DNA of 64,000 nucleotides from Chloroflexota bacterium (GTDB lineage: Bacteria > Chloroflexota > UBA11872). The stretch spans positions 1-64,000 of the forward strand of contig JAJDZD010000010.1 in NCBI GenBank assembly GCA_022824865.1, given 5' to 3'. The first letter of the stretch is position 1. Every line of letters starts with the position of its first letter. The position numbers and the translations under genes are program-made. The notes under the pieces are model-generated. The model ran no database searches. It had not been told where the DNA came from and was given only the letters and a program-made list of their open reading frames with translations. This document shows positions 53,412 through 57,736 of the stretch, in pieces.

Positions 53412-53549
53412 GCCGACAGTGTCTGGTTGCATGAAAGAATCTCGGGTGCGGGGAAGAGGTGGATTCCAGCCCTGGTTCGCGGGAACGGCGGGGGCGTGGG
53501 CGCCTACACTTGGCGCACGGCCGCGCGGCAGTTCCTGTCTGGAGATGTG

Positions 53550-54500
53550 ATGCCCCTGTATTTGACTGAAGCGGACGTGGATGCGTTGGGGGATATGGCG
53601 TTGGCGCTGGAGGCGGTTGAGGGGGCGTTTGACCGGCAGGGTCGGGGCGTGGCGGGGAACGTTGGGCGACGGCGGGCGTCGGTTCCGGCCGGGTCGCTGA
53701 ATGTGATGGGCGGCGCCGACGAGGAACTGGGCGCGGCGGGAGCCAAGATTTATGGGACGTTCGGCGGCGGCGCACGGTTTGTGGTGGTGCTGTTTGACGT
53801 GGCAACGGGTTCGCTGCGGGCCGTGCTTGAGGCCGGGAGGTTGGGCGAGCTGCGGACGGGGGCCGCGAGTGGAATTTCGAGCAAGTACCTGGCGCGATCG
53901 GACAGCCGAGTGGTGGGGCTGATCGGGAGTGGTCGGCAGGCGCGAACGCAGCTTGAAGCGCTGAATGGGGTGCATGAGTTGGCCGAGGCGCGGGTGTATT
54001 CGCGGAATCCGGCGAATGTTGAGACTTATGTCAAGACGATGAGCGAGTGGGTTGACGCGGAGCTGGTTGCCTGTTCGTCAGTGGCGGAGGCTGTGCGAGG
54101 CGCGGACATCGTGGTGACGGCGACGACCGCGGCTGGGCCGGTGCTGATGGCGAACGACCTGGAGCCGGGAATGCACGTGGTGGCAATGGGGAGCAACAAC
54201 CCGGTGCATGGCGAAGTAGAACCGGCCGTCGTGGCACGGGCGGACCGGGTGTTCGTGGACGACCTGGACGGGGCGCACGTGGAGGCCGGCGACCTGATGG
54301 CGGCGGAGCGCGCCGGGGTGTTGCAGTGGGGGCAGGTTATTGAGTTGGGCCAGGTGGTGGCCGGGCAGGTGGCCGGTCGCACGGCGGACAACGAGATCAC
54401 GCTGTTCGCCTCGCAGGGAATCGCGCTGTGGGATATTGCGATGGCGCAGGCGGTGGTGGAACGGGCGGAGGCCGCGGGACGAGGCCGACAAGTTCCCTAG
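53550..54500 (+). CDS. Ornithine cyclodeaminase / mu-crystallin family protein
   Basis: The 316-residue protein carries the family pattern. [14 protein letters not shown] at the start is followed by GAKIYGTF, the NAD-binding core [15 protein letters not shown] (GxGxxA-like), [16 protein letters not shown] and [14 protein letters not shown], and [18 protein letters not shown] with the active-site Asp region. Members catalyse ornithine-to-proline conversion or reduce imines. GGAG sits five bases upstream. It ends 46 bp before dop and may be co-transcribed with it. Confidence 0.86.
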
Positions 54501-54546: not shown

Positions 54547-56049
54547 ATGAACCGTCCCGCAGGCATCGAGACCGAATACGGGCTCAACTGCGAGGGCTTT
54601 GCGGGCGAACCCGATTTCGCCTACGAGGCGGCCCGACTAATCCAGGCGGCGCCGGTTGAGGGCGCGTTTCGCGGCTGGGACTACGTGGGCGAGGACCCGT
54701 ACCGTGACCTGCGGGGCGGGCGAGCGAATCGGCTGGAGCCGGACCCGCGGGATCTGACGGGGTCGACGGACCGTAGCCGAGGGATGTCGCGCGACGAGCT
54801 GCTCTCGAACACCGTGCTGCGCAACGGGGCGCGGCTGTACAACGACCACAACCATCCGGAGTACTGCACGGACGTCTGCCTGACGCTCAAGGACCTGGTG
54901 GCCCAGGACAAGGCGGGCGAGCGGGTGATGTTCGCGGCGGAGACGGCGCGGAACGCGAAGCTGGGTTATGGGCAGATCCGTTTGCTGAAGAACAACACGG
55001 ACTATCACGGCCGCAGCTACGGCTGCCACGAGAATTACCTGACCTCGCGGAGGATTCCGACTGACGACCTGATCCGGGTGACGGTGCCGTTCCTGGCGAC
55101 ACGGCAGGCGTTTGCGGGAGCCGGGCGGGTTGGGATCGAGCGTGGGGATCAGTTGCGGTTGCAGATGTCGCAGCGGGCGGATTTCTTCGAGGAAGTGACC
55201 GGGATCAACACGACGGCGCGGCGGCCGATATTCAACACGCGAGACGAGCCGCACGCGGACGCCGGGAAGTACCGGCGGCTGCACGTGATCGCAGGGGACG
55301 CGAACCGGAGCGAGTGGGCGACGGCGATGAAGGTGGGGACCACGGCCCTGGTCCTGGACTTGGCGATGAAGGGTTGGCGGCCTTCGGAGTGGCTGACGGA
55401 CCCGGTGCGGGCGATGCGGCGGGCGTCGCATGACCTGGAATTCGGCGATGTGGTCGACATAGAGCGGGGCGGGCCGGTTTCGGCTCTTGATGTTCAGCAG
55501 TGGTATTGCGAGGCAGCGCAGCGGTACCTGGGACGGGACGCGGAAACGACGTGGGTGCTGGAGGAGTGGTCGGCGGTGCTGGAGGACCTGGGGCGGAACC
55601 GGTCCCTAGCGGCGGACAGGGTGGACTGGGTGGCAAAGGAGCGCCTGATCGCCGAGATGCGTGAGGATTTTGGGCCGGAGTGGAACGACGAGGATGCGCG
55701 GCGGGTGGACCTGGGGTATCACGTGTTGGATCCGGACTGGTGCGTGTACGACATGCTGGTGGACGAGGGGCAGATGCGGCGGATCGTGAGCGATGCCGAT
55801 ATCGAGCGGGCGCTGACGACGCCGCCAGCGGGCACTCGGGCGGCGGTGCGCGGGGACGTGCTGCGGCGGTTCGGCAAGGACATCAGCGCGGTGGAATGGG
55901 ACCGGGTGGTGTTCCGAAGAAACGGGTACGACGTGACGCTGCGATTCGACGACGTTGCGGGACCCGAGGTGGACCGGCTGGGGCGGCTGGTCGGGAAGGC
56001 GCAGACACTGGATGGATTGCTGACCGCGTTGGACGCGGAGGGAAGGTGA
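54547..56049 (+). CDS. dop: Pup deamidase/depupylase
   Basis: The 500-residue protein belongs to the carboxylate-amine-ligase-like Dop/PafA family. It starts with the ATP-site GIETEYG (Glu8, Glu10) and has NGARLYNDHNHPEYC with the catalytic Asp100, then KNNTDYHGRSYGCHENYL, SQRADFF and NTRDEPHADAGKYRRLHVIAGDANRSE. The long insertion at about residues 45-88 corresponds to the Dop loop and separates it from PafA. Dop deamidates a Pup C-terminal Gln to Glu and removes Pup from targets. The next gene ends in Gly-Gly-Gln, as this enzyme would require. Confidence 0.94.
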   Translation: MNRPAGIETEYGLNCEGFAGEPDFAYEAARLIQAAPVEGAFRGWDYVGEDPYRDLRGGRANRLEPDPRDLTGSTDRSRGMSRDELLSNTVLRNGARLYNDHNHPEYCTDVCLTLKDLVAQDKAGERVMFAAETARNAKLGYGQIRLLKNNTDYHGRSYGCHENYLTSRRIPTDDLIRVTVPFLATRQAFAGAGRVGIERGDQLRLQMSQRADFFEEVTGINTTARRPIFNTRDEPHADAGKYRRLHVIAGDANRSEWATAMKVGTTALVLDLAMKGWRPSEWLTDPVRAMRRASHDLEFGDVVDIERGGPVSALDVQQWYCEAAQRYLGRDAETTWVLEEWSAVLEDLGRNRSLAADRVDWVAKERLIAEMREDFGPEWNDEDARRVDLGYHVLDPDWCVYDMLVDEGQMRRIVSDADIERALTTPPAGTRAAVRGDVLRRFGKDISAVEWDRVVFRRNGYDVTLRFDDVAGPEVDRLGRLVGKAQTLDGLLTALDAEGR

Positions 56050-56053
56050 GAAC

Positions 56054-56230
56054 ATGCGGGATCTTGTAGTTGCCGGCCGCAGTTGGCATGCGGAAACCGA
56101 GGCGCCAACGAAGCCCGCCGAGGCTCCGACGGAGCCGGCGGCGCCGGAGAAAGAGGAGGACCTGCGGGAGCGTCGGCGGCGGATTATCCGCGAGATTCCG
56201 GATCCGACGCCTCAGCCCGGCGGGCAATAG
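56054..56230 (+). CDS. pup: Candidate Pup-like modifier ending in GGQ (58 aa)
   Basis: The 58-residue frame begins at ATG 56054, four bases after the dop stop, with GGAAGG seven bases upstream. The N-terminal half is Ala/Pro/Thr/Glu-rich and disordered, followed by a charged helix (EEDLRERRRRIIREI, about residues 34-48), and the end PTPQPGGQ. Pup proteins are ~60-70 residues, disordered, end in GGQ or GGE, and lie next to dop and pafA. All of this fits. The sequence itself does not match actinobacterial Pup or the usual UBact tail, so it is a divergent member. Deamidation of the last Gln would give the ligatable Glu. Confidence 0.85.
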   Translation: MRDLVVAGRSWHAETEAPTKPAEAPTEPAAPEKEEDLRERRRRIIREIPDPTPQPGGQ

Positions 56231-56239
56231 CGCCAGCGC

Positions 56240-57736
56240 ATGGACGACATCGTCTTTGGGACCGAGATCGAGTTCGCGTCGGCCGGGGCGTTGCCGCCGG
56301 GGCAGGCGGCGCGGCTGGTGAAGTCGATCCTGTTCCAGGACCGTCGCTTCGGGCTGATCGATCCGGCGCCACGGGAGTGGGACGAGGAACCGGGGAACGG
56401 CGGGCACCTCTTTAACGGCGCGCGGCTGTACCTGGACTCGGGTCACATCGAGTACGCCTCTGCGGAGTGCCGGACGCTACGGGACATCGTGGAGCAGGAG
56501 AACGCGGCTTCGGCGGTGCTGCTGGACACGGTGGAACGGCAGGAGATGAACCGGAAGCTGTTCTTCATCAAGAACAACACGGACCACCTGGGGAATACGT
56601 TCGGGTACCACGAGAACTACTCGATCGTGACGAGTCCGCGAAGCCGGGAACTGGTGCTGGGGCTGCTGCCGTTTCTGACGACGCGGCAGCTGTACGCCGG
56701 GGCGGGGATGACACTGAATCCGCAGGAGGCGGGCGGGCGGCTGCCGTTTCACATGTCGCAGCGGGCGGCGTTCGTGTCGGTGGACGTGAGCCACCGGGTG
56801 CGGTTTGGGGGGCGGCCGATCATCAACCTGCGGGACGAGCCGCTGAGCGAGCGGACGGGGCTGCGACGGCTGCACGTGGTGGTTGGGGACGCGAATCAGT
56901 CGCAGTACGCGACGGCGCTGAAGGTGGGGAGCACGGCGCTGGTGGCGCAACTGCTGGCGGCGGGATGGAACCCCGATCTGTACCTGGACGAGGCGGTGCG
57001 GTCGATCAAGTCGATTTCGCGCAACCCGGGCGGTCCGTGGCCGGTGGAACTGGTGGACGGGCGGACGATTTCGGCGATCGACGTGCAGCGGGTCTACCTG
57101 GCGGCCGCGACTTCGGCGTTTGCGGACCGTGACGCCGATACGGACTGGACGCTGGCCGCGTGGACGGAGTGCCTGGACGGGCTGGAGACAGACCCGGAAT
57201 GCCTGGTGGGCAAGGTGGACTGGGTGACCAAGCTGGCGGAACTGCGGGAATACGCGGACGATTCGCCGGAGGGTTGGGCGGACTCGGACCTGGTAAAGCT
57301 GGACCTGGCGTATCACCACGTGGACCCGACGGTGAGCCTGTTCAGCGAACTGCAGCGACGGGGGCTGATGTACCGGCTGGTTTCGGGGCCGGTGAATCCG
57401 CTGGCGATTCCGGAGGGGACTCGGGCCGGAGCACGGGGGCGGATTGTGCGGGCGCTTTCCGAGGCGCGGGCGGACTCGCACATCGACTGGAAGGACATCC
57501 AGCACAACCTGGGCGCGCTGGCCAGTTGGGAGAACCAGCTATACCTCGTATATCAGTACATTGAGCATTGGCGGGAGCTGGATGAGTTTGGAGGCTGGTC
57601 GTTCGTGCCGTACCTGGTGGACTGGGATGGGATTGGGGTGCGGGGGCGGATATTTGAGATGCCGGATCCGTTTGAGAGCTATGAAGATGAGGCAGAGGAG
57701 TTTGCGGGGGCCGTGGAGGAGTATCTGGGCGGTTAG
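56240..57736 (+). CDS. pafA: Pup--protein ligase
   Basis: The 498-residue protein has the PafA layout: ATP/Mg site FGTEIEF (Glu9, Glu11), NGARLYLDSGHIEYASAEC with the catalytic Asp66 and no Dop loop, KNNTDHLGNTFGYHENYS, SQRAAF, NLRDEPLSERTGLRRLHVVVGDANQSQ and HWR-rich C-terminus. Relative to known PafA, the usual DVGSHPEY is one residue shorter here (DSGHIEY). The ligase forms an isopeptide bond between the Pup C-terminal Glu and a target Lys. It starts nine bases after the pup stop. The protein itself ends in Gly-Gly. Confidence 0.93.
   Translation: MDDIVFGTEIEFASAGALPPGQAARLVKSILFQDRRFGLIDPAPREWDEEPGNGGHLFNGARLYLDSGHIEYASAECRTLRDIVEQENAASAVLLDTVERQEMNRKLFFIKNNTDHLGNTFGYHENYSIVTSPRSRELVLGLLPFLTTRQLYAGAGMTLNPQEAGGRLPFHMSQRAAFVSVDVSHRVRFGGRPIINLRDEPLSERTGLRRLHVVVGDANQSQYATALKVGSTALVAQLLAAGWNPDLYLDEAVRSIKSISRNPGGPWPVELVDGRTISAIDVQRVYLAAATSAFADRDADTDWTLAAWTECLDGLETDPECLVGKVDWVTKLAELREYADDSPEGWADSDLVKLDLAYHHVDPTVSLFSELQRRGLMYRLVSGPVNPLAIPEGTRAGARGRIVRALSEARADSHIDWKDIQHNLGALASWENQLYLVYQYIEHWRELDEFGGWSFVPYLVDWDGIGVRGRIFEMPDPFESYEDEAEEFAGAVEEYLGG

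Follow-up and report, generated by a model that had tools for sequence, protein, structure and literature searches.

A small gene lodged between homologs of dop and pafA in a 64,000-nt stretch of Chloroflexota DNA (contig JAJDZD010000010.1, positions 1 to 64,000; hereafter the window) very probably belongs to a pupylation-type conjugation cassette with a modifier family of its own, a third of the pupylation kind, which would be ancestral to the class and work without a proteasome or ARC. We refer to the 58-residue product of this gene, which ends PGGQ, as the tag. An earlier note on this DNA, made from its letters, had pointed to the gene and to the gaps of 4 bp and 9 bp that separate it from dop and pafA, and both the open reading frames (ORFs) and the PF03136 matches on either side agree with that description. 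The window comes from UBA2235/UBA11872, which a 2023 reclassification treats as an uncultured lineage of class rank (PMC10608941); judging from project names, we read many of the class records as sponge derived. Our sample comprised 400 genomes of the phylum Chloroflexota, 41 of them from this class and 359 from elsewhere in the phylum.

Conservation of the tag gene

The Pup_ligase domain of the two enzymes (PF03136) was found in 39 of the 41 class genomes, and neither this domain nor the tag was found in any of the 359 other sampled Chloroflexota. The earlier note had proposed looking in related genomes for a short ORF between dop and pafA, and such a frame proved to be conserved: it lies between the two genes in 38 of the 39 carriers, and in the remaining one (G009) a run of N lies across the site. 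Within the window's family, 18 of 19 genomes carry PF03136, with short GGQ- or GGE-ended frames between the enzyme genes. A tag profile built from 24 of the 38 tag sequences (alignment A1), run against all 400 genomes, recovered the tag in 38 of them, always as a single copy, and these are the same PF03136 carriers minus G009. This search used no tail filter, and all 38 matches extend to the last profile position.

The DNA encoding the tail is different in each of the 38 sequences, with synonymous codons varying freely, yet the encoded peptide reads PTPQPGG in all of them and is followed by Q in 14 and by E in 24. Since 38 differing DNA tails give one peptide, PTPQPGG[Q/E], the tag peptide is, as judged from sequence, under strong selection. 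Some of the constancy of the tail was preselected by our tail pattern search, which demanded a terminal P[DG]PTPQPGG[QE]; the unfiltered profile search recovers the same 38 genomes. Upstream of the tail, the residues R-I-[IV]-R-E-[IVM]-P-[DG] are nearly invariant. Both the length and the sequence of the N-terminal half are variable, although it is rich in P, T, and E throughout, and the start codons of some homologs are uncertain. As for the last residue, Q and E alternate between sister genera (f1) and also within families f2 and f4. The earlier note had tied its proposal to a kept frame and a constrained GGQ end; in all 38 readable loci the frame is retained and its product ends solely in GGQ or GGE.

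Neither Pfam nor NCBIfam places the window's tag in a family at E values up to 10, and the best match of the tag profile among solved structures has an E value of 1.5. Weak matches of single members (FtsA_C at 0.011 in four members, a kinase inhibitor at 0.0083 in one, and others) were discounted, being probably due to composition. Viral contigs gave 14 matches to the tail pattern, none of them related to the tag. The AlphaFold2 model of the free tag, of modest confidence (mean pLDDT 65.9), consists of a single helix at residues 31-43 and an extended tail.

The Dop and PafA homologs

The first ORF of the cassette scores higher with the NCBIfam model for Dop (TIGR03688, 410.5 bits) than with that for PafA (TIGR03686, 339.5 bits), and the third ORF scores higher with the PafA model (277.5 bits) than with the Dop model (246.6 bits). 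The window's Dop aligns with the solved Dop 4b0r over residues 1-468 (3.3e-101), including the Dop-loop region and its Trp, and thus displays the Pup_ligase domain, the Dop-loop, and the conserved Trp (W44, equivalent to W47) of a Dop protein. In a plain sequence search, the window's PafA matches both the solved PafA 4b0t (5.2e-56, 193.6 bits) and the solved Dop 4b0r (1.9e-56, 195 bits), its residues 1-56 being unaligned to 4b0t. When its AlphaFold2 model (mean pLDDT 80.5) was searched with Foldseek, the best match was the Pup-PafA complex 4bjr_A (E value of 1.9e-26), with Dop entries close behind; the protein has the Pup_ligase domain, the fold, and the catalytic Asp of PafA and contains no Dop-loop.

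For the alignments and the tree, we used 13 of the 39 loci for each enzyme and added 7 rows from outside the class, including a partial Dop (33 rows in the tree). Dop residues W44, R96, D100, H101, H161, T222, H236, and W451 are identical in all 13 aligned class sequences, as are PafA residues E9, E11, D66, and R192. The accessible excerpt of the work on Dop-Pup structures describes Dop W47, R90, H95, H155, T217, H231, and W453 and also names PafA D64 and R201 (PMC8599861). Through the alignments to 4b0r and 4b0t, every one of these maps onto a residue that is identical in 13/13 class sequences, and the equivalent of F49 in the Dop-loop is Y in 12 sequences and S in one. Dop D94, the catalytic residue, corresponds to D100 and is likewise identical in all 13. 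As far as these alignments can tell, the class enzymes keep their catalytic and tag-binding residues.

In the tree, the class PafA sequences form one clade and the class Dop sequences another (100/100 and 100/99 as drawn), both on long stems. The outside row nearest to the PafA clade is the Nitrospira PafA, a placement that is unsure because of its long branch. Families f1, f2, and f5 and the f4 pairs group alike in the PafA and Dop subtrees, which suggests descent from a class ancestor rather than repeated transfer.

Some further features of Pup_ligase proteins were noted. Apart from its dop-tag-pafA locus, genome G029 encodes a third, weaker Pup_ligase homolog (contig C77, 12835-13926; 210.6 bits). 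The PafA of G022 bears a long acidic C-terminal extension (locus L062, 8849-10585, minus strand), and the Dop of G031 (contig C129, 56136-57461) matches Pup_ligase as two separate pieces, reflecting either a sequencing error or a divergent stretch. A contig filed under Candidatus Woesearchaeota encodes a Pup_ligase protein (L106, 3983-5572, plus strand; PF03136 at 1.5e-91) with 26% identity to the window's PafA, and the same 9.4-kb stretch holds two GE- or GQ-ended frames, neither of which adjoins the Pup_ligase gene.

Comparison of the tag with Pup and UBact

The Pup model PF05639 recognizes none of the 24 scanned tags at E values up to 10, the UBact models PF20513 and NF033388 recognize none either, and a profile comparison of the tag with UBact found nothing. 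By comparison, PF05639 gives 106.3 and 66.5 bits to two fetched Pups, one from Nonomuraea and one from a 'Bacteriophage sp.' record, and the UBact of the Nitrospira locus L104, the sole UBact sequence compared, is matched by PF20513 (7.3e-20) and NF033388 (4.9e-21). The alignment to Pup and UBact profiles that the earlier note had recommended thus left the tags unmatched and the controls matched. Its view that the tag differs from described UBact tails holds as well: the L104 UBact ends RTGE, whereas all 38 tags end PGG[Q/E]. To our knowledge, a tail of the RTGE type is general in UBact. The further claim that the tag lacks the actinobacterial helix and tail stood only in part, the mismatch with the Pup profile being confirmed (0/24), whereas AlphaFold2 does predict a helix, at the modest confidence given above.

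With the unfiltered tag profile, the two Pups reach 4.3 and 2.4 bits, scores attained by 4 and 18 of 500 shuffles that preserve the ends, and UBact reaches 1.9 bits, attained by 58 of 500. The sequences thus offer a faint hint of a tie between the tag and Pup and none of a tie to UBact, and membership in neither family is established. We consider the working likeness of the tag to Pup to be much stronger than the family likeness.

The enzymes might have had their true partner in a canonical Pup or UBact encoded elsewhere in the genome, but this was rejected, as no other Pup or UBact match exceeded the cut-off in the 41 class genomes. The UBact scan also gave nothing over the cut-off in 14 control genomes, with L104 serving as the positive control. 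Weaker matches in the class, under the cut-off, numbered 2 for Pup and 10 for UBact; among the three such loci that we read, the frames of L144 and L146 are not GG[Q/E] ended, and L145 is a 738-aa frame running off the stretch.

Search for proteasome and ATPase genes

No match to the proteasome family PF00227 was found in the home genome or in 38 of the 41 class genomes, and in none of the 41 were two PF00227 genes found. G018, assembled as one 3.0-Mb contig (94% estimated completeness), contains dop-tag-pafA and has no PF00227 match. Each of the genomes G012 and G013, both in the window's genus, encodes a lone 247-aa PF00227 protein. One such protein (L068, 1246-1986, minus strand; 41.9 bits) adjoins a 166-aa gene that has no Pfam match and that, we presume, resembles SocA-type antitoxins. 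In G026, a 147-aa PF00227 fragment, presumably PrcA-like, lies at the end of contig C256 (L070, L150); the assembly has 6% estimated contamination, and the fragment may be either contamination or part of a real proteasome.

The cut-off of the Mpa/ARC model TIGR03689 was exceeded by no protein in the 19 genomes of the window's family. The best match in the home genome (146.5 bits, a 675-aa frame) is FtsH, with AAA and Peptidase_M41 domains. The search for mpa/arc and prcBA suggested in the earlier note therefore yielded, in the home genome, no PF00227 protein and an FtsH as the nearest thing to Mpa. The Mpa/ARC-type OB domain PF16450 matched weakly in 5 of the 41 class genomes, two of the matches being over the cut-off when frame neighbors are counted. 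Of the loci checked, L137 is a DUF58 protein, L139 reads similarly to L137, and L140 is a penicillin-binding protein; the match in G023 lies outside this set. Overall, no Mpa/ARC-type ATPase was found in the class with TIGR03689 in the 19 family genomes and PF16450 in all 41.

Organization of the locus

All three genes of the cassette lie on the plus strand, within positions 54547-57736 (Table 1). The earlier note's proposal that the tag gene has its own ribosome binding site is backed by GGAGGGAAGG ahead of the ATG, and similar purine-rich stretches precede several tag homologs. A scan for promoters and terminators gave a signal no better than that of shuffled sequences. In stretches of up to 20 kb around 16 loci, with frames of at least 90 aa considered, nothing is common to all beyond dop, tag, pafA, and shadow frames; the most widely kept other gene cluster occurs in 8 of the 16, and in some loci several hundred bases separate tag and pafA. 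A gene of the ornithine cyclodeaminase/mu-crystallin family (53427-54500, plus strand) ends 46 bp ahead of dop in the window and could share its transcript; it is outside the set common to all compared loci.

Table 1. Features of the cassette, numbered by position in the 64,000-nt window
Feature	Position	Strand	Remarks
dop, deamidase/depupylase homolog with Dop-loop	54547..56049	+	500 aa; PF03136 1.1e-144
Ribosome-binding-site-like GGAGGGAAGG	56037..56046	+	within the 3' end of dop; 7 nt ahead of the tag ATG; read from the sequence
Pup-like modifier (tag) gene	56054..56230	+	58 aa; ATG start; ends PGGQ-stop
Conserved C-terminal core RIIREIPDPTPQPGG[Q/E], tag residues 43-58	56180..56227	+	38 distinct DNA tails
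pafA, Pup ligase homolog	56240..57736	+	498 aa; PF03136 7.7e-102

Discussion

What the enzymes are, that their active sites are conserved, and that the tail is conserved can be read directly from the sequences, and by analogy with the homologous enzymes the cassette would work as follows. The tag would be largely unfolded apart from a single short helix, with a proline-rich tail that closes in GGQ or GGE. In tags with a terminal Q, Dop would deamidate that residue to E; PafA, using ATP, would join the side-chain carboxylate of the last E to lysines on other proteins, and Dop would take the tag off again. After trypsin digestion, a tagged lysine would bear the remnant EIPDPTPQPGGE, or EVPDPTPQPGGE for tags of family f5. 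In this arrangement, helix 31-43 may stand in place of the first helix of Pup, and PDPTPQP in place of the second. Neither an Mpa/ARC-type ATPase nor a complete 20S proteasome was found, so the tag probably feeds no proteasome; tagging might instead alter the activity or the partners of its targets or, conceivably, pass them to a standard AAA+ protease, for example FtsH. The undescribed ubiquitin-like modifier family in Chloroflexota that the earlier note had proposed gains support from the conserved frame and the lack of any Pup or UBact match, with conjugation itself deduced from homologs.

How the tag relates to the known modifiers is a finer question. We see even chances that it originated or was remodeled independently of Pup and UBact, with one helix and a proline-rich rod in place of the second helix of Pup, as a class-wide and ancestral modifier, and that its conjugates, recognized by neither a proteasome nor ARC, serve reversible signaling or an unknown reader. 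A serious possibility, to which we give somewhat less than an even chance, is that the tag is a true Pup of the same family and function that has diverged until its recognizable sequence was lost. The tag gene occupies the position of pup, its product has the same GGQ/GGE end, and the shuffles hint at similarity to one of the two Pups (4/500, against 18/500 for the other), perhaps through a common LDE-helix region; however, PF05639 recognizes none of the 24 tags even at E values up to 10 while scoring the fetched Pups at 106.3 and 66.5 bits, and the stretch corresponding to the second helix of Pup reads PDPTPQP. That the tag is instead an offshoot of UBact, known as a modifier from Nitrospira, seems to us quite improbable: although UBact likewise accompanies PafA outside the Actinomycetota, contains prolines, and ends GE at the Nitrospira locus, its models match the Nitrospira UBact at 7e-20 and 5e-21 and not one of 24 tags, its tail is RTGE and not PGGE, 58/500 shuffles reach its score with the tag profile, and the profile comparison was null. 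In addition, the Nitrospira locus has two PF00227 genes, and no PF00227 gene is among the shared genes of the class loci.

The tag could also be a degradation signal for a proteasome that was missed in draft genomes, as the presumably PrcA-like fragment in G026 and the lone 247-aa proteins of G012 and G013 might suggest. We consider this unlikely, given that two PF00227 genes were found in no genome of the 41, that no Mpa/ARC-type OB domain was found, and that the single-contig genome G018 has the cassette without PF00227. One might also take the short ORF for a chance frame or for just a leader in translational coupling. Its shortness and the narrow gaps around it in the window would fit, but the peptide is kept in 38/38 readable loci despite free synonymous change, even several hundred bases from pafA, which leaves this explanation with next to no probability and rules out a chance ORF. 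Several observations nevertheless weigh against a proteasome-independent, class-ancestral cassette with its own modifier. Nearly all of the sampled genomes are drafts, and the enzymes are missing from two class genomes, G007 (76% complete) and G019 (93% complete, 1.9 Mb). Sequence similarity between the tag and either Pup or UBact is not significant. All four NCBIfam scores fall under the equivalog cut-offs, making both enzymes outlying members, and the PafA-like protein lies marginally nearer to the solved Dop than to the solved PafA (195 versus 193.6 bits). Finally, the TIGR03689 search was confined to the window's family, and the isolated PF00227 matches, one each in three of the 41 class genomes (G012, G013, and G026), mean that some class members may possess a proteasome.

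With the Pup-PafA-Dop system of the Actinomycetota (PF05639, TIGR03686, TIGR03688), the cassette shares two paralogous enzymes of one fold, the gene order dop-tag-pafA, conserved active-site and tag-binding residues, and a short tag, predicted to be mostly unfolded, with a GGQ/GGE end. It differs in that the Pup model does not match its tag, its enzymes score under the equivalog cut-offs, and the class lacks any detected Mpa/ARC or full 20S gene pair. Pup is disordered and forms two helices on its enzymes; for the free tag, AlphaFold2 predicts one helix (31-43, mean pLDDT 65.9), followed by the PDPTPQP tail. According to the accessible excerpt of one study of Actinobacteria, PupQ and PupE both occur, side by side in some organisms, and corynebacteria lack genes for proteasome subunits yet possess pup, pafA, dop, and the proteasomal ATPase, from which another role was inferred (PMC3511204). 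The corynebacterial case thus resembles ours in having enzymes and tag without a full proteasome, but there the ATPase is kept, none being found in the Chloroflexota class, and the tag differs. UBact at L104 likewise combines PafA and Dop homologs outside the Actinomycetota with a small tag; unlike the class, it has an RTGE tail and two PF00227 genes at the locus, with no model match either way. In Plesiocystis and Rhodopirellula, the available part of another report describes Pup ligases that carry an insert of four transmembrane segments, have a linked membrane protein, and are unlinked to proteasome genes (PMC2588565). These share with the class a Pup ligase apart from proteasome genes, whereas the window's PafA, at 498 aa against 493 aa for 4b0t, would by this length comparison leave little room for such an insert.

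The excerpted text of a 2020 survey reports Dop/PafA largely in Actinobacteria and Nitrospirae and sporadically in other phyla, without naming Chloroflexi (PMC7947786), and the excerpt of PMC3511204 likewise does not mention them; pupylation and Chloroflexi both appear, unconnected, in PMC7448276 and PMC10693628. Our searches of the open-access literature gave no report of this system. As no primary UBact paper was among the matches listed, the novelty claimed here is relative to the searchable literature. Separately, a 'Bacteriophage sp.' record from human feces (L143; MT835496.1, 37018-48475) encodes an ARC-type ATPase, Dop, a Pup ending VQKGGQ, and PafA, and looks like a misfiled actinobacterial chromosome.

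Within the sampled phylum, the system is thus present in 39 of the 41 genomes of one class and in none of the others, and the tag falls outside all modeled families. With a third, very different partner at hand, what PafA and Dop require of a tag becomes open to testing, as does the role that pupylation may play without a proteasome or ARC.

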